Shown here in pieces: positions 5,390-31,033 of a stretch of 31,033 nucleotides of DNA (position 1 is the first letter of the stretch; the number at the start of each line of letters is the position of its first letter). Below the pieces are notes generated by a model. The model was not told where the DNA came from, did no database searches, and saw only the letters and a list, made by a program, of their open reading frames with translations. The translations under genes and the position numbers were made by a program. Source of the DNA: a virus; IMG/VR virus record IMGVR_UViG_3300048123_000030, positions 1 to 31,033 of that record. The stretch is one strand, 5' to 3'.

Positions 5390-5400
5390 TATATATATAG

Positions 5401-5480
5401 TATATTATTATATATTATATTATTATATATATTATATTATATATTATTATATTTATATATATTATATATATTATATATAA
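5401..5480. repeat. 80-bp pure A/T tract; possible origin or unwinding element
   Basis: Eighty consecutive bases contain only A and T, built from irregular TATATTAT/ATTATATA units, followed by a GC dinucleotide and an A5T10 run (5483-5497). It lies in the longest non-coding stretch of the window, between the last lysis gene and the first early gene. Easy melting and low complexity fit a DNA-unwinding element, but no iteron or clear DnaA box was recognised beside it. Confidence 0.6.
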
Positions 5481-6094: not shown

Positions 6095-6102
6095 TACTTT
6101 TG
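6072..6102 (+). promoter_or_regulatory. Bacteroidota-type promoter TTG-N20-TACTTTTG
   Basis: TTG at 6072-6074 and TACTTTTG at 6095-6102 (TAnnTTTG) are separated by 20 bp, the spacing expected for Bacteroidota housekeeping promoters. It overlaps the 3' end of the NinG-like gene. The predicted start near 6107 precedes no long ORF, only a short segment ending in a terminator. Confidence 0.6.
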
Positions 6103-6106
6103 TAGT

Positions 6107-6165
6107 GTTCATACGAACATCGTTTTAATGTTATGATTGGGGGGTGCTTTGCCCCCCTTTTTTTT
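6107..6165 (+). ncRNA. Candidate small RNA with 16-nt complementarity to a phage mRNA leader
   Basis: Between the promoter and the terminator lies a ~59-nt segment with a small 5' hairpin (GTTC-ATAC-GAAC, 6107-6118), a single-stranded ATCGTTTTAATGTTAT (6119-6134), then the terminator hairpin. That 16-mer is the exact reverse complement of 9916-9931, in the leader of the gene at 9935. Its core GTTTTAATGTT is the reverse complement of 6194-6204, in the leader of the gene at 6211. The only ORF is 12 codons running into the terminator. It could instead be an mRNA 3' end. Confidence 0.45.
6138..6165 (+). terminator. Rho-independent terminator
   Basis: Six G (6139-6144) pair with six C (6152-6157) around a short loop, followed by eight T (6158-6165). 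Confidence 0.9.
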
Positions 6166-6181
6166 ATTTAAAAATAATTTA

Positions 6182-6204
6182 TATATTTACACCAACATTA
6201 AAAC
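6182..6204 (+). promoter_or_regulatory. Promoter -7 element TATATTTA with AACATTAAAAC leader box
   Basis: TATATTTA (6182-6189) differs from TAnnTTTG at the last base. AACATTAAAAC (6194-6204) follows, six bases before ATG 6211. The same arrangement (TATATTTG, then AACATTAAAAC, then N6 and ATG) occurs at 9907-9935, so the two promoter-leaders appear related. Confidence 0.5.
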
Positions 6205-7161: not shown

Positions 7162-7166
7162 CCAAG

Positions 7167-7192
7167 AGGGGGCTAACCACCCCCTTTTTTTT
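7167..7192 (+). terminator. Rho-independent terminator
   Basis: AGGGGG (7167-7172) and CCCCCT (7180-7185) pair around the loop CTAACCA, followed by a run of eight T. Confidence 0.88.
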
Positions 7193-7193
7193 A

Positions 7194-7201
7194 TAACTTT
7201 A
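7194..7201 (+). promoter_or_regulatory. Possible weak -7 element TAACTTTA
   Basis: TAACTTTA is one base off TAnnTTTG and lies 12 bp before ATG 7206, directly after a terminator that would otherwise stop transcription into the helicase gene. No -33 TTTG is visible. The mRNA would be nearly leaderless. Confidence 0.3.
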
Positions 7202-7205
7202 CCAA

Positions 7206-8114
7206 ATGCTAATAAACTTCGATAAACATTTAAAGAAACTCAATGATATACGTGCAGGAAAAGTAAGCGAGGGTTTACGCTTAGGGATAGATAGATTAGA
7301 TAATCACTTTCGTTTTGTGCATGGTAATCTTAACTTTATTTTAGGACACGCCAATACAGGTAAAACACACTTAGTATTTTATTTGATGTTTCTGTACTCA
7401 CTAAAGCATAACGTCCGATGGCTTGTGTTCAGCAGTGAGAACGAACCCTACGCACTAATTAGAAAGCTAATAGAGTTTGCAGAAGGCAAACCGATTAACC
7501 AAATAGAGAAAGAGGACTTTGAAAAGCAATACGATTGGGTATATAAACATTTTAAGTTTGTAGATACTGAGAAAGCGTACACATATAAAGACCTTTTACA
7601 ACTTGCTACTGCTGTAAAAAAGGCGTGGGATTATCAAGGGTTTTTAATTGATCCTCTTAATAGCTTAAAAAAGGATATCCCTAAGAACTCAAACAGCTAT
7701 GAGTACAGCTACGAAAGTCTTACCGATATACGAATCTTCTGCAAACAGCATAACATTACTACGTGGATATGTGTTCACGCTGTTACAGAAGCATTAAGGA
7801 AAAAACACCCTCAGGGGCATTACTACGCTAATCAACCTATACCACCTATGGCTTCTGATAGCGAGATGGGTGGGATGAGTATGAATAGAGCTGATGACTT
7901 TTTAATCATACATAGATACATATACCACGAAACGGATTGGATATACTCAAACCTATATTCAGCTAAGGTTAAAAACCAAGAGTTAGGGTACAAACCTACA
8001 CCTATGGAAGATCCGATTAAGTTTAGAAGTATATTAAATAATGTAGGGTTTGAAATAGATGGAAAAAATTTAGTAACTTACAATACCAAAGAACAAACAG
8101 ATTTACCATTTTGA
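7206..8114 (+). CDS. DnaB/RecA-like replicative ATPase (helicase)
   Basis: 302 residues. A single RecA-fold ATPase domain of the DnaB-C/SF4 type: Walker A GHANTGKT (47-54), FSSEN (75-79) with the catalytic Glu, Walker B GFLIDP (Asp149), WICVHAV (187-193) and MGGMSMNRADDFLIIHR (221-237), which corresponds to the helicase H3/H4 region. There is no N-terminal DnaB domain and no primase domain. The C-terminus TDLPF copies the SSB-type tip of the neighbouring DUF3127 protein. Its stop overlaps the TTG start of the sigma-factor gene. Inferred role: fork unwinding or loading at phage origins. Confidence 0.8.
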   Translation: MLINFDKHLKKLNDIRAGKVSEGLRLGIDRLDNHFRFVHGNLNFILGHANTGKTHLVFYLMFLYSLKHNVRWLVFSSENEPYALIRKLIEFAEGKPINQIEKEDFEKQYDWVYKHFKFVDTEKAYTYKDLLQLATAVKKAWDYQGFLIDPLNSLKKDIPKNSNSYEYSYESLTDIRIFCKQHNITTWICVHAVTEALRKKHPQGHYYANQPIPPMASDSEMGGMSMNRADDFLIIHRYIYHETDWIYSNLYSAKVKNQELGYKPTPMEDPIKFRSILNNVGFEIDGKNLVTYNTKEQTDLPF

Positions 8115-8608
8115 AAACAACACTTGAGAAGATTGCAGAAAAGCACGATGATTGGCATAGAATCGTGTTATCTTTTGGCTGCAAAGAATCCATAGCAGAA
8201 GATATAGTGCAAGAAGCGTATCTGCGTATCCACACTTACATTACAAAAGGTGTAGATATAACCTATGGCGATGATATAAACCACATGTATGTTTACCGAG
8301 TTTTAAGGGGTTTGTTTATAGATCTGCATAGAAAAGAAAAAAATATAATAAAAACCAATATAGATAACCTTGCCGACTATTTAGACGAGCAGGGCGAATC
8401 AAAAGAGATAGACATTTGTGGTGTTATGAAGCAAATGGATAGTCTGCTCGACAAAACCTTTTGGTATGATCGTACTGTCTTTGAGATAATTAGCGATGGT
8501 ATGCCTATTGCAGAATTAGCACGAAAGACAAACATATCTTATTATTCTCTGTACTTTACATACAAAAGAGTTAAGGATTTAATCAAAAATAATATAGAAT
8601 GGGATTAG
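8111..8608 (+). CDS. Small sigma-70-type RNA polymerase sigma factor
   Basis: 165 residues, starting at TTG 8111 inside the preceding stop; the next in-frame ATG would remove conserved region 2. ESIAEDIVQEAYLRIHTYI (residues ~27-45) is the sigma region 2 core-binding helix pattern (AEDIVQEtfLR). VYRVLRGLFIDLHRKEKN resembles regions 2.3-2.4. A C-terminal helix-turn-helix (FEIISDGMPIAELARKTN) resembles region 4. It is ECF-sized. It sits at the end of the helicase operon in the early region and is the best candidate to recognise the ACAAAAT/TACGTTATATA promoters of the late genes. Specificity is inferred, not shown. Confidence 0.72.
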   Translation: MKTTLEKIAEKHDDWHRIVLSFGCKESIAEDIVQEAYLRIHTYITKGVDITYGDDINHMYVYRVLRGLFIDLHRKEKNIIKTNIDNLADYLDEQGESKEIDICGVMKQMDSLLDKTFWYDRTVFEIISDGMPIAELARKTNISYYSLYFTYKRVKDLIKNNIEWD

Positions 8609-8760: not shown

Positions 8761-8898
8761 ATGGGATTAGGGGATTTAGTATTTTACTTTACAAAATACA
8801 CAGGAATACGTTATATAGTAAAGAAGATATCCAAACTTAGGGGTAGAGATTGTGGCTGTGATGAGCGCAGAAACAAATGGAATAACATAAAATTTTAG
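8761..8898 (+). CDS. 45-residue protein with DCGCDERR motif
   Basis: MGLGDLVFYFTKYTGIRYIV begins an amphipathic segment and DCGCDERRNKWN follows. Small proteins of the form GLGD-then-DCGCDER occur in many Bacteroidota phages and look like short metal- or thiol-active proteins, but I know of no assigned role. A late-promoter-like sequence lies within the coding region at 8791-8818. Confidence 0.6.
   Translation: MGLGDLVFYFTKYTGIRYIVKKISKLRGRDCGCDERRNKWNNIKF
8791..8818 (+). promoter_or_regulatory. Intragenic copy of late promoter motif
   Basis: ACAAAAT (8791-8797) and TACGTTATATAG (8807-8818) match the two late-promoter boxes, with 9 rather than 10 bases between them. It lies inside the 45-residue ORF, with ATG 8900 about 80 bp downstream. 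It may be a weak promoter or chance. Confidence 0.3.
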
Positions 8899-9883: not shown

Positions 9884-9914
9884 TTTGTTTATTAACATTT
9901 TTTTATTATATTTG
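9884..9914 (+). promoter_or_regulatory. Bacteroidota housekeeping-type promoter TTTG-N19-TATATTTG
   Basis: TTTG at 9884-9887 and TATATTTG at 9907-9914 (exact TAnnTTTG), 19 bp apart, are a full match to the Bacteroidota -33/-7 promoter. The predicted start is near 9919-9921, giving a ~15-nt leader before ATG 9935. It is the clearest host-type promoter in the window. Confidence 0.78.
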
Positions 9915-13426: not shown

Positions 13427-13547
13427 AAAATGGACTCAAGCACAAAAGATTGAGCAGATAGAAAGAGCTACAACAAAACTCTATCTAATGGTTAATCAAT
13501 TAGCTAAAGAGGTGCAGGAATTAAAGGGTACACAAAATCCTGAATAA
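13416..13547 (+). CDS. 43-residue helical protein before terminase
   Basis: MKSKKWTQAQKIEQIERATT continues into a helical, coiled-coil-like segment (LYLMVNQLAKEVQELKGTQ). It is the last gene before the late promoter at 13532, whose first box overlaps its 3' end. Function unknown. Confidence 0.48.
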   Translation: MKSKKWTQAQKIEQIERATTKLYLMVNQLAKEVQELKGTQNPE

Positions 13548-13559
13548 TTACGTTATATA
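13532..13559 (+). promoter_or_regulatory. Late promoter candidate 1 (terminase operon)
   Basis: ACAAAAT (13532-13538), ten bases, TACGTTATATA (13549-13559). ATG 13584 follows 35 bp after the start of the second box, so the mRNA would carry a ~20-nt leader. Both boxes match the copy at 26158-26185 exactly. Confidence 0.6.
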
Positions 13560-13838: not shown

Positions 13839-15039
13839 CATACATAAGAAATACCTACCAATATCCACAGACGATAGTAGATACTTTGTTGTTACAGGTG
13901 GTAGGGGTTCAGGTAAGTCTTTCTCAATAAATGCTTTGCTTGTTATACTTACCTATGAGCGAGGGCATACAATCCTATTTACAAGATACACTTTAACATC
14001 TGCACGTATCTCTATTATTCCTGAGTTTATAGAGAAGTTAGAACTGATGGATTGTATTGCAGACTTCCACGTTACTAAAGACGAGATAATAAATAGAAAA
14101 TCAGGAAGTAAGATAATCTTTAGGGGTATCAAGACAAGCTCAGGCGATCAGACAGCAAGTTTAAAATCACTCACAGGTATAACTACGTGGGTAGTAGATG
14201 AAGCAGAGGAACTAACAGATGAGCAGAAGTTTGATACTATTGACCTATCAGTAAGACAGCAAGGCAATCAAAACAGAGTTATCTTAATACTCAATCCTAC
14301 AACTAAAGAGCATTTTGTCTATACACGATTCTTTGAGGATAAAGGCGTACAGGAAGGTAGCAATACGAGTAAGGATAACACCACATACATTCACACCACC
14401 TACTTAGATAACCTAAACAATCTATCTGAAAGCTACATAGATCAGATAGAACAAATGAAACAGCGCAGACCTGAGAAGTACAAACAACAGATGTTAGGTT
14501 CGTGGATGAGTAAAGCTGAGGGTGTGATATTTACTAATTGGACGATAGGCGATTTTAAAAAGAAAGGTGTTAGCGTATGGGGGCAGGATTATGGCTTTGC
14601 TGCTGATCCATCAACTCTTGTAGAAACAAACATAGATACAGATAACAAAATAATCTATCTAAGGGAATGTTTTTACCTGCCACGACTCACAACCTCACAG
14701 ATAGCGCAACTCAACCTTAAACACGCTAAGGATGGTCTTATCGTAGGCGATAGCGCAGAGGTGCGACTACTACATGAAATAAAAGCCAAAGGTTGTAACG
14801 TAACAAAATCAATCAAAGGACAGGGCAGTGTTACCTATGGGATATCTTTATTACAAGACTACGACTTAGTGGTAAGCCCTGATAGTACAAACCTTATTAA
14901 AGAACTGAATAATTACAGATGGTTAGAGCGTAAGTCTAACACGCCTGTTGATGCTTACAACCACCTTATTGATGCAATTAGATATGCAGTAGGTTATCAA
15001 CTGCAAAACCCAAACAGAGGTCAGTACGCAATTCGTTAA
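13828..15039 (+). CDS. terL: Terminase large subunit
   Basis: 403 residues from TTG 13828; no ATG precedes Walker A. ATPase domain: Walker A GGRGSGKS (24-31), Walker B TTWVVDEAEE with Asp124 and Glu125, and a C-motif region LILNPT (153-158). Nuclease domain: WGQDYGFAADP with Asp254, IVGDSAE with Asp308 and HLIDAIRYAV with Asp382. It is of the Terminase_3/PBSX-like type. It packages DNA into the prohead through the portal, which here is encoded 12 kb away. Confidence 0.95.
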   Translation: MSINIHKKYLPISTDDSRYFVVTGGRGSGKSFSINALLVILTYERGHTILFTRYTLTSARISIIPEFIEKLELMDCIADFHVTKDEIINRKSGSKIIFRGIKTSSGDQTASLKSLTGITTWVVDEAEELTDEQKFDTIDLSVRQQGNQNRVILILNPTTKEHFVYTRFFEDKGVQEGSNTSKDNTTYIHTTYLDNLNNLSESYIDQIEQMKQRRPEKYKQQMLGSWMSKAEGVIFTNWTIGDFKKKGVSVWGQDYGFAADPSTLVETNIDTDNKIIYLRECFYLPRLTTSQIAQLNLKHAKDGLIVGDSAEVRLLHEIKAKGCNVTKSIKGQGSVTYGISLLQDYDLVVSPDSTNLIKELNNYRWLERKSNTPVDAYNHLIDAIRYAVGYQLQNPNRGQYAIR

Positions 15040-15063
15040 AATCATTTTTTTTTACGTTATATA
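15036..15063 (+). promoter_or_regulatory. Late promoter candidate 2 (tail operon)
   Basis: TTAAAAT (15036-15042), ten bases that are mostly T, TACGTTATATA (15053-15063). ATG 15079 is 26 bp after the start of the second box, giving a ~12-nt leader. The first box overlaps the terL stop codon. Confidence 0.58.
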
Positions 15064-15815: not shown

Positions 15816-16281
15816 TCAAGGTGCAAGAGGGTTCTATCAAATAACCAACACAATCAAAGACCAACTACTCGCTGATGATAACATCAATACAGTTACCACA
15901 GGCGATATAACAGATATTGACCTAAACAAACAAACAATCTTCCCACTTGCACACATTGTAATTAATAACGTAACATTGGAAGAGCAGGTACTTAGATTTA
16001 GTATGAGTATCCTTACAATGGATGTAGTAGATCAAAGCAAAGATGCAGTAGTAGATGTGTTTAGGGATAACGATAACGAGCAGGACGTACTTAACACTCA
16101 ACTTGCTGTTATTAACAAAGTAATACAGGTGCTTAGAATGGGTACGTTATACACATCGAAGTATCAATTAGATGGCGATCCAAGCTGTGAACCCTTTTAT
16201 GATAGATTTGAGAACTCTGTTGCAGGGTGGGCTACAACCTTTGACGTGCTTATAGAAAACGATATTAACGTATGCAGTTAA
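15808..16281 (+). CDS. Tail or neck structural protein
   Basis: 157 residues. Opens with MANQGARGFYQITNTIKDQL and a strand-rich middle (IFPLAHIVINNVTLEEQVLR, then FSMSILTMDVVDQSKD), ending with VAGWATTFDVLIENDINVCS. Phage tail terminator and minor tail proteins at this position have comparable length and the closing strand-rich segment. Overlaps the next gene by 10 bp. Confidence 0.58.
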   Translation: MANQGARGFYQITNTIKDQLLADDNINTVTTGDITDIDLNKQTIFPLAHIVINNVTLEEQVLRFSMSILTMDVVDQSKDAVVDVFRDNDNEQDVLNTQLAVINKVIQVLRMGTLYTSKYQLDGDPSCEPFYDRFENSVAGWATTFDVLIENDINVCS

Positions 16282-22081: not shown

Positions 22082-22109
22082 ACAAAAACAAAACTAAATA
22101 CGTTATATA
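22082..22109 (+). promoter_or_regulatory. Late promoter candidate 3 (protease)
   Basis: ACAAAAA (22082-22088), ten bases, TACGTTATATA (22099-22109). ATG 22113 begins exactly 14 nt after the start of the second box, so a conventional start site would make the mRNA leaderless. Confidence 0.6.
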
Positions 22110-23939: not shown

Positions 23940-23970
23940 ACAAATTAATTTTTAAATACGTTATTATATT
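23940..23970 (+). promoter_or_regulatory. Late promoter candidate 4 (scaffold)
   Basis: ACAAATT (23940-23946), ten bases, TACGTTATTATATT (23957-23970), directly followed by ATG 23971. The 17-nt distance between box starts and the 14-nt distance to ATG are the same as at 22099 and 26175. The second box carries one extra T. Confidence 0.58.
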
Positions 23971-26157: not shown

Positions 26158-26185
26158 ACAAAATTCAGATTATATACGTTATATA
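26158..26185 (+). promoter_or_regulatory. Late promoter candidate 5 (portal operon)
   Basis: ACAAAAT (26158-26164), ten bases, TACGTTATATA (26175-26185), directly after the terminator. ATG 26189 begins 14 nt after the start of the second box. Confidence 0.62.
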
Positions 26186-29269: not shown

Positions 29270-29364
29270 GATATAAACCAAAAGATAAGAACATAGTTAA
29301 ATTAAAAAGATTTTTGCAAAAGAACGAAAGTAAAGTATGGCAAATCTTCAAAACAAAAGAATAA
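29257..29364 (+). CDS. 35-residue basic small protein
   Basis: MGTVRYKPKDKNIVKLKRFL and QKNESKVWQIFKTKE: strongly basic, helical. It overlaps the connector gene by 13 bp and the fibre gene start by 28 bp. Similar overlaps occur throughout this phage, so it is probably translated. Confidence 0.45.
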   Translation: MGTVRYKPKDKNIVKLKRFLQKNESKVWQIFKTKE

Positions 29365-31033
29365 AGGACACCTACGAGGGGCTAATCAAAACTAATGATA
29401 ACAATGCTATCAGTAGTGAGGTTGAGCTTACCGATGGTGCAGGTAATGGTACAGGTGTCAGCGTATCTACTGATGGTCGTGTAGTGGCATCAGGTACTGT
29501 TTCTTTTGGTTCTTTGAAGGATACAGGCGAAAACATTACGATCACAAAGTTTGTTGACGAAGCAGATGGGATTGCAAACAATGATAATGACACTTCTATC
29601 CCCACAGTTGCAGCAGTTAAGGACTATGTAGATAGCACCGAACTTGATACTGTTACAAGCGTAAACACGCAGACAGGCGATGTAGTCTTAGATACAGACG
29701 ATATAAGCGAAGGCACAAGCAATCTATACTATACAGAAGCTCGTGTAAGCGCAAACACAAGCGTAGCAGCTAACACTCTAAAAAATACTTACCCCTCTTC
29801 TGATGCGACTAAGGTAGGGCATATCACAGTAACACAAGCTGTCGATTTAGACACCTTAGAATCAAATGTAGCTACAAACAATTCTAAGATCAGCTTTGAC
29901 TCTACAAGTAGTGCAAAATTAGCAGGTATAGAGAATGGTGCAGAAGTGAACCCAACAAGCACCGATGAATTAAGTGAGGGTTCTACAAACTTATATTATA
30001 CCGATGCTCGTGTATCAGCTAATAGCGCAGTAGCAGCGAATACAGCAAAAACAGGCATAACCACGCAACAAGCAGCAGATATAACCACAAACAATGCAAA
30101 AGTAGGCATAACGACAGATCAGGCAAACGCTATTACTACCAACTCTGCAAAAGTATCTTTTCCCGAAGCACCTAATGATGGCGATGCTTATGTAAGAAAA
30201 AACGAAGGTTGGGAAAGTTTAACACACCCTGCTGATGCAGTTACTTCTGTAAATGGGGAAACAGGTGTAGTAGTTTTAGATTCAGACGATATCACAGAAG
30301 GTACATCTAACCTGTACTTTACCGATGCAAGAGTGTCTGCAAACTCTGATGTTACAGCCAACACAGCTAAGGTAGGAATCACTACACAACAAGCAAGTGA
30401 TATTACCACAAATAACGCTAAGGTTGGCATTACAACTCAACAAGCTGCTGATATTACTACTAACAATGCGAAGGTAGGTATCACGACTACCCAAGCAGAT
30501 GCAATCACAGCAAACTCTGCAAAGAATAGTTATCCCACAGATGATGCTACTAAACTTTCAGGGATAGAAGCAGGGGCAGAAGTAAACGTACAAGCTAATT
30601 GGAATGAAACAGATACTAATAGTGATGCTTATATTATTAATAAGCCAACTATACCTACTGCTGCTGTTGATAGTGTAAACACCCAAACAGGCGATGTAGT
30701 ACTCGACACGGATGATATTTCAGAGGGTACAACTAATTTATACTACACAGAAGCAAGGGTATCTGCTAACACAAGTGTAGCTGCAAACACAGCCAAAGTA
30801 GGTATAACCACCCAACAAGCGAGTGATATTACAACTAACAACGCTAAAATAAGTTTTGATAGTACATCATCTACTAAGTTAGCAGGTATTGAAGAAAACG
30901 CAGATATTACCGATACTGCAAATGTTACAGCAGCAGGTGCATTGATGGATAGTGAAGTAGATGCAGATATCAAGACTTTAAGTTTACCTGCTAATACAAC
31001 TATCAGCTCTTTTGCTCAATCGTTTTTAGATGA
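29337..31033 (+). CDS. Repetitive tail-fibre protein, 3' end cut by window edge (allele 2)
   Basis: Open from ATG 29337 (MANLQNKR, then IKDTYEGLIKTNDNNAI) to the window end, 565 complete codons. It is the second version of the gene at 2-2329. Relative to that allele it has two extra 17-residue type B repeats (around 30376-30477) and lacks 70 residues comprising two type C repeats. Most base changes are silent, with a few replacements such as Asp/Asn and Ser/Ala. It is the natural next gene after the connector operon, so the circular gene order is connector, fibre, receptor-binding protein, lysis. Confidence 0.8.
   Translation, partial: MANLQNKRIKDTYEGLIKTNDNNAISSEVELTDGAGNGTGVSVSTDGRVVASGTVSFGSLKDTGENITITKFVDEADGIANNDNDTSIPTVAAVKDYVDSTELDTVTSVNTQTGDVVLDTDDISEGTSNLYYTEARVSANTSVAANTLKNTYPSSDATKVGHITVTQAVDLDTLESNVATNNSKISFDSTSSAKLAGIENGAEVNPTSTDELSEGSTNLYYTDARVSANSAVAANTAKTGITTQQAADITTNNAKVGITTDQANAITTNSAKVSFPEAPNDGDAYVRKNEGWESLTHPADAVTSVNGETGVVVLDSDDITEGTSNLYFTDARVSANSDVTANTAKVGITTQQASDITTNNAKVGITTQQAADITTNNAKVGITTTQADAITANSAKNSYPTDDATKLSGIEAGAEVNVQANWNETDTNSDAYIINKPTIPTAAVDSVNTQTGDVVLDTDDISEGTTNLYYTEARVSANTSVAANTAKVGITTQQASDITTNNAKISFDSTSSTKLAGIEENADITDTANVTAAGALMDSEVDADIKTLSLPANTTISSFAQSFLD
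29360..31033. repeat. Right copy of imperfect terminal direct repeat
   Basis: Counterpart of 1-1782. Both end inside the fibre gene at the same codon region (SFAQSFLDD), as expected if the window is one permuted genome length read past its starting point on a different allele. Confidence 0.88.

Follow-up and report, generated by a model that had tools for sequence, protein, structure and literature searches.

An early-encoded ECF-type sigma factor is the probable reader of the late promoters of a phage

The 31,033-base marine phage sequence IMGVR_UViG_3300048123_000030, analyzed here over its full length and called the window below, very likely encodes the sigma factor of its own late genes. 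In the mechanism that we propose, an ECF-type phage sigma factor would be made early, from a host-type promoter, and would bind the host core RNA polymerase, presumably displacing the host sigma factor. It would then direct the polymerase to about five late promoters of the form cAAAA-N12-ACGTTATATA that drive the packaging, head and tail genes, with CGTTATATA being read by sigma-2 and the cAAAA block probably by sigma-4. The proposal builds on computational observations of the fold of the protein, the anatomy of the promoters, their concerted covariation with the sigma allele, and the residue predicted to contact the changing base.

All main genes of the window are on the + strand (Table 1). 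The early side, from 5526 to about 13450, codes for a NinG-like protein, a DUF3127 protein, a DnaB-like helicase, the sigma factor, an exonuclease-like protein and a DNA methyltransferase. The late side comprises TerS (13584, so labeled by its position preceding TerL), TerL (13828), tail and tape-measure genes, head genes, the portal gene (26955), a fiber gene and an M15 endolysin gene (4461). TerL shares 54% identity with the TerL proteins of the Nonlabens phages P12024L and P12024S, and from the relatives and the TAnnTTTG elements we infer that the host group is Bacteroidota. A long, nearly pure A+T stretch at 5390-5480, also found in relatives, separates the late and early regions. The ends of the record (1-1782 and 29360-31033, fiber region) are approximately 95% identical in direct sequence, which would reflect either a duplication of the fiber gene or, in a circular or permuted genome, closure of the record on a strain variant. 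At 6095-6165, a strong terminator hairpin stands about 40 nt past an TACTTTTG element, and the interval contains no sizeable ORF, an arrangement that may specify a small RNA.

The TTG start of the sigma gene overlaps the stop codon of the helicase gene (TTGA, 8111-8114), and TTG is also used there in many relatives; translational coupling of the two genes is possible. No anti-sigma gene was seen adjoining the sigma gene, and no phage RNA polymerase was found among the window ORFs searched. Just past this neighborhood lies a small conserved ORF (8761-8898; GIRYIVKK..CGCDERR), which is kept in many relatives and had no Pfam match.

TABLE 1 Positions of the features of the window
Feature	Position	Strand	Remarks
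Host-type -7 element TATATTTA, before early ORF 6211	6182..6189	+	TAnnTTT[AG] in 15/15 unique relatives
Host-type -7 element TAACTTTA, before helicase-sigma pair	7194..7201	+	Conserved in close relatives only
DnaB-like helicase gene	7206..8114	+	Early operon partner of sigma; stop overlaps sigma start (TTGA)
Predicted ECF-type sigma factor, 165 aa	8111..8608	+	TTG start; profile, fold and homologue evidence
Sigma-2, residues 1-81	8111-8353	+	
Helix of residues 58-77 (regions 2.3-2.4)	8282..8341	+	Putative -10 reader
Codons of residues 64 and 67	8300-8302; 8309-8311	+	
Sigma-4, residues 100-165, after linker	8408-8605	+	
Exact late-motif copy in small ORF 8761-8898	8807..8817	+	A-block one base out of register; score 8.3
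Host-type TATATTTG, before early ORF 9935	9907..9914	+	TTTG at 9884 upstream
Putative late promoter 1 (TerS operon)	13533..13559	+	cAAAA-N12-ACGTTATATA; ATG 13584, 32 nt past G; changes in step with other sites
Putative late promoter 2, before ORF 15079	15037..15063	+	tAAAA-N12-ACGTTATATA, with T-tract
Putative late promoter 3, before ORF 22113	22083..22109	+	ATG 11 nt past G; predicted leaderless
Putative late promoter 4 (weaker), before ORF 23971	23941..23967	+	cAAAt-N12-ACGTTATTAT; ATG 11 nt past G
Putative late promoter 5, before ORF 26189, upstream of portal 26955	26159..26185	+	ATG 11 nt past G

A preliminary description of this DNA had read a 165-residue sigma factor from ORF 8111-8608, with the region 2 pattern AEDIVQEAYLR and a region 4-like helix-turn-helix, and both features were recovered. 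The pattern corresponds to residues 29-39, and region 2 was matched by Pfam PF04542 (E 4e-5) with 23.8 bits, just below the cut-off of 24. TIGR02937 (sigma70-ECF) spanned residues 14-160 (E 1.1e-7) with a score of 31.7 against a cut-off of 42.9, so that neither the Pfam nor the NCBIfam curated cut-off was reached. Among 30 members of the sigma family, PF04542 matched 17 at E ≤ 0.01 and TIGR02937 matched 29. An AlphaFold2 model built on a 30-row alignment had a mean pLDDT of 85, with a loose, low-confidence linker at about residues 80-100. Its top structural matches, obtained with Foldseek and VIA-align, were mostly ECF sigma factors, the closest predicted folds being those of Escherichia coli SigE (1or7_A, Z 10.6) and Mtb SigH (Z 10.5). 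Residues 1-81 superposed on ECF sigma factors at about 2.5 A (2.3 A over 70 residues for SigR region 2), and residues 100-165, whose helices span residues 102-161, fitted SigE region 4 in complex with -35 DNA (2h27; Z 10.0, 2.1 A over 66 residues). The large rmsd values of the two-domain rows result from domain placement. The 165-aa protein contains no sigma-1.1, sigma-1.2 or sigma-3 domain, only sigma-2, the linker and sigma-4. On the strength of the profile matches and the model, we assign it to the ECF-type (group IV) sigma factors, with a sigma-2 plus sigma-4 architecture.

Five exact copies of TACGTTATATA are present in the window, every one on the + strand. The motif had been proposed to mark the late genes, which held for the sites at 13550, 15054, 22100 and 26176 and failed for the copy at 8807 in the early region. 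The motif had also been given too small an extent, being only half of the bipartite promoter cAAAA-N12-ACGTTATATA, and one promoter, ACGTTATTAT at 23958, had been missed. The other half was derived from 22 non-redundant sequences upstream of TerS and ORF 15079 homologues, aligned on ACG. The single further conserved block was AAAA at -16 to -13 from the A of ACG, usually preceded by C (the first A in all 22, the second and the third in 21 each, the fourth in 18). With a bipartite matrix, the sites at 13550, 15054, 22100 and 26176 scored 25 to 34 bits, compared with a best score of 18.6 in 40 random sequences. The 23958 site scored 11.2 and is kept before ORF 23971 in relatives, at the same distance from the ATG. 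A terminator-like sequence with a C-run and a T-run precedes late promoter 5, and the product of ORF 22113 gave a weak head-protease match. The A-block lies about 3 to 5 bp nearer to the -10 element than the usual ECF -35 box, which makes its reading by sigma-4 uncertain.

Several other copies of the motif were rejected as promoters. That at 8807 lies inside the conserved small ORF of the early region, and relatives of the A class defined below have TTCGCTATATA there rather than the A-class motif; since it does not follow the class, it is probably a coding coincidence. The copies at 16143 and 26827 had low scores and no upstream A-block.

If the GTT of the late motif is G-11 T-10 T-9 in ECF numbering, the predicted transcription start lies 11 nt past the G. 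The first ATG was found at exactly this distance in 50 of 122 unique bipartite sites (41%, against a background of 1.6%), and at 32-33 nt in 45 further sites; the window ORFs with the 11-nt arrangement are 22113, 23971 and 26189. Transcription is thus predicted to start on the A of the ATG at many late genes, whose mRNAs should be leaderless. If true, this would tie promoter choice to translation mode.

Relatives, mostly represented by fragmentary contigs, were gathered by sigma, by TerL, and by sigmas of other subclades. The sigma gene was present in 287 of 342 non-redundant loci, with one match per locus in 286 of the 287. The preliminary description had named relatives that keep the motif and lack the gene as a finding against the link. 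We found no such case among the loci reaching far enough upstream of TerL, as sigma is carried by every one of the 19 loci that were fetched by TerL and extend 6 kb or more upstream of it; the checked records lacking sigma begin too near TerL to show the sigma locus. Across 135 relatives, the sites before TerS and ORF 15079 fell into five -10 classes, CGTTATA, CGATATA, GTTTATATATTA, TATTATATA and GTTATAAATA-like, which were called by pattern, with a few contigs hand-corrected or dropped. The two sites belonged to the same class in 104/104 genomes with both classed, and the ORF 22113 site, where read, mostly agreed with the class. Misfit homologous sites occurred before ORF 23971 in L087 and before ORF 22113 in L107. 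In L107 and in L023, L106, L115 and L118, we also observed an insertion after TerL that opens with a promoter of host type, TATATTTG for example, and closes with a terminator-like run, ahead of the late promoter.

Among relatives sharing 94-97% TerL identity with the window, those with the 79-82% identical sigma allele, which carries Q64, have CGATATA before both TerS and ORF 15079; relatives of the T class have CGTTATA at these places. None of the 62 sigma clusters at 90% identity was class-mixed; TerL clusters included mixed ones. Pairs with 80-90% identical TerL but sigma identity below 50% never shared the class (0/358), pairs with TerL identity below 60% but sigma identity of at least 65% shared it in 253/265 cases, and the standardised logistic coefficients for class sharing were 2.03 (sigma identity) and -0.18 (TerL identity), all of these values being descriptive because pairs are not independent. 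At the level of sequence comparison, promoter class tracks the sigma allele and not the neighboring terminase. As the late start signals change in step with sigma, sigma is very probably the factor that turns on the late genes.

The host-type elements of the early region behaved differently from this. Those before ORF 6211, before the helicase gene (in close relatives) and before ORF 9935 (where present) read identically in the T and A classes, and a CG[TA]TA element occurred in 0/66 cases before the helicase gene and 0/15 before ORF 6211. Element TAACTTTA, directly after a terminator at 7164-7188, is the likely source of the sigma transcript. The earlier ascription of TAnnTTTG to the early region thus stands for specific, conserved TAnnTTT[AG] elements before early genes, and TAnnTTTG alone does not mark the region. 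It exceeds expectation only mildly (61 copies on the two strands of the whole window, with 41 expected), TTTG-N17-20-TAnnTTTG occurred genome-wide within the chance range (4, versus a mean of 1.5 and a maximum of 4), and a generic sigma70 promoter scan was uninformative, giving fewer matches than shuffles.

Residue 64 of sigma, Q versus T/V/I/M/C, tracks base 5 of the motif, A versus T, with Q64 found only with the A class (10/10 versus 0/122). Residues 39 (R/K versus L/M) and 64 separate the T class from the A class fully, and residue 67 nearly so. The window protein has R39, V64 and G67, and Q64 is the residue of L021 and L123. The combination of Q64 and A was found on two sigma clades, split by L112 (T64, T class) with a branch support of 0.937; the T/A switch is represented by these two clades on one tree, and covariation pairs are not independent. 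As the two A-class clades share residue 39 besides residue 64, the N-terminal half may have been exchanged by recombination. In a profile alignment to SigR, residues 60, 64, 67, 70 and 71 correspond to W, I, N, I and N, which we read, using the family numbering, as the counterparts of SigH W81, I85, N88, I91 and N92. The structure of SigH shows T-10 stacked against I85 and hydrogen-bonded to N88, and the -11 G:C pair read by I91 and N92 (PMC6411747). With GTT as G-11 T-10 T-9, position 5 of TACGTTATATA is -10. Residue 64 therefore aligns with I85 in the pocket for the changing base, and covariation and structure independently name the same contact. An equivalence of residue 64 with sigma70 Q437 was dropped, as W433/W434 are placed at SigH R84/I85 (PMC6411747). 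The family represents a natural data set for the reading of the -10 base by ECF sigma factors, through residue 64 and perhaps residues 39 and 67.

Might the late promoters be read by another factor, a host sigma or a phage regulator encoded near the sigma gene, with the phage sigma serving elsewhere? Genes linked to sigma would covary with the promoters in a similar way. This explanation is nevertheless very unlikely, given that the residue tracking the changing base sits in the sigma pocket for that very base, that host-type promoters are the same across classes, and that P12024L retains both sigma and motif despite different other early genes. Slightly less credible still is phylogenetic inertia, in which sigma and motif would each follow the lineage with no functional link. 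The clade-wise distribution of the classes and the non-independence of the pairs agree with it, but the class goes with sigma where TerL disagrees, several sites per genome change jointly while early promoters stay, and the Q64-A pairing occurs on two separated clades.

A third alternative is that the motif, rather than being a promoter, acts in AT-rich leaders as a signal for translation or packaging, which would fit the short, fixed interval that often separates it from the ATG. At other sites this interval is 23 or 32 nt and the A-block spacing still remains constant, several sites have T-runs or terminator-like sequences upstream, and the sites precede several separate late genes; we regard such a signal as the least probable of the alternatives, and hardly to be expected. 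Recognition of late promoters by the phage sigma factor, a link that the preliminary description had drawn from distribution, is thus favored by their concerted change with the sigma allele, by residue 64, by the unchanged early promoters, and by the parallel in P12024L.

Few phages are known to encode a sigma factor that redirects the host polymerase to their late genes. In a survey of more than 4,000 phage genomes, sigma homologues were found in less than 15%, and Bacteroidetes are not mentioned in its main text (PMC9429907); in the searchable literature, we found neither a description of such a factor from Bacteroidota phages nor a paper on promoters of sigma-bearing Bacteroidota phages. 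Here, hundreds of uncultured genomes carry the sigma gene, and sigma and promoters change together, which opens a route to assigning late promoters and operons in these genomes. A scan of genome contigs for sigma provided no host link, yielding weak matches to bacterial sigma-like genes besides one 3.5-kb contig, from a MAG labeled Campylobacterales, that encodes a 43% identical sigma relative and is probably a misbinned phage fragment. We consider it reasonably probable that a large phage family, probably of marine Bacteroidota, possesses an ECF-type late sigma of its own, that the -10 specificity of this factor has switched several times with all late promoters of a genome rewritten in step, and that the late mRNAs are mostly leaderless from the AUG. 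If so, the family would provide a natural code that relates residues of the ECF -10 pocket to bases.

The cultured relative P12024L encodes a homologous sigma, gp35 (NC_018272.1, 21405-21884), which surfaced through its annotation, stating that it contains Sigma-70 region 2 and nothing more, and through a family-profile match (E 1e-13). A tblastn search of the window sigma against INPHARED gave no match at E ≤ 0.1, gp35 included. A CGTTA[AT] element precedes seven P12024L genes (179, 3031, 5412, 22090, 24771, 26011 and 27612), with the ATG exactly 11 nt past the G in six and 10 nt past it in one, and, by hand count, 6/7 have a CAA block beginning 18 bases upstream from the C of CGTT, in the register of the window. 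The late genes thus carry CAAA-N14-CGTTAATA with the spacing of the window; they differ in their -10 element, CGTTAATA rather than CGTTATATA. At the equivalents of residues 64 and 67, gp35 has T and N, as expected from a T-class promoter. Judging from these sequence features, gp35 of P12024L and P12024S is a candidate for an unrecognized late sigma, and the two phages constitute a culturable test system.

T4 gp55 is a small late sigma factor that acts on the host polymerase; it recognizes no promoter element besides TATAAATA and depends on the sliding clamp. In its sigma-4 domain and its bipartite promoter, the window sigma departs from this region 4-less, TATAAATA-only type. With Mtb SigH, Streptomyces coelicolor SigR, and SigE, SigW and SigZ, it shares the two-domain fold, GTT at -11 to -9 and equivalent pocket residues; it differs from bacterial ECF sigmas in scoring below the curated family cut-offs and in its AAAA upstream block, which is nearer to the -10 element. 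Phages 7-11 and phiEco32 encode sigma factors for late promoters (PMC8948821). That of phiEco32, gp36, similarly takes the host core to phage promoters, middle and late ones, but it recognizes a single-element promoter, tAATGTAtA, has no region 4 homology, and works with gp79 (PMC8948821); the bipartite CGTTATATA promoters and the sigma-4 domain set the window apart from this type. In 7-11, early genes depend on the host sigma and there is no middle class, and gp47 (SaPh711_gp47) is a phage sigma with a region 4-like C terminus and bipartite late promoters (GTAAtg-16-aCTA), although with its own promoter sequence and spacing and in an enterobacterial host, and with leaderless starts unmentioned (PMC8948821). 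By analogy of design, the system of the window would work like that of 7-11, with a promoter code of its own and predicted leaderless transcripts.
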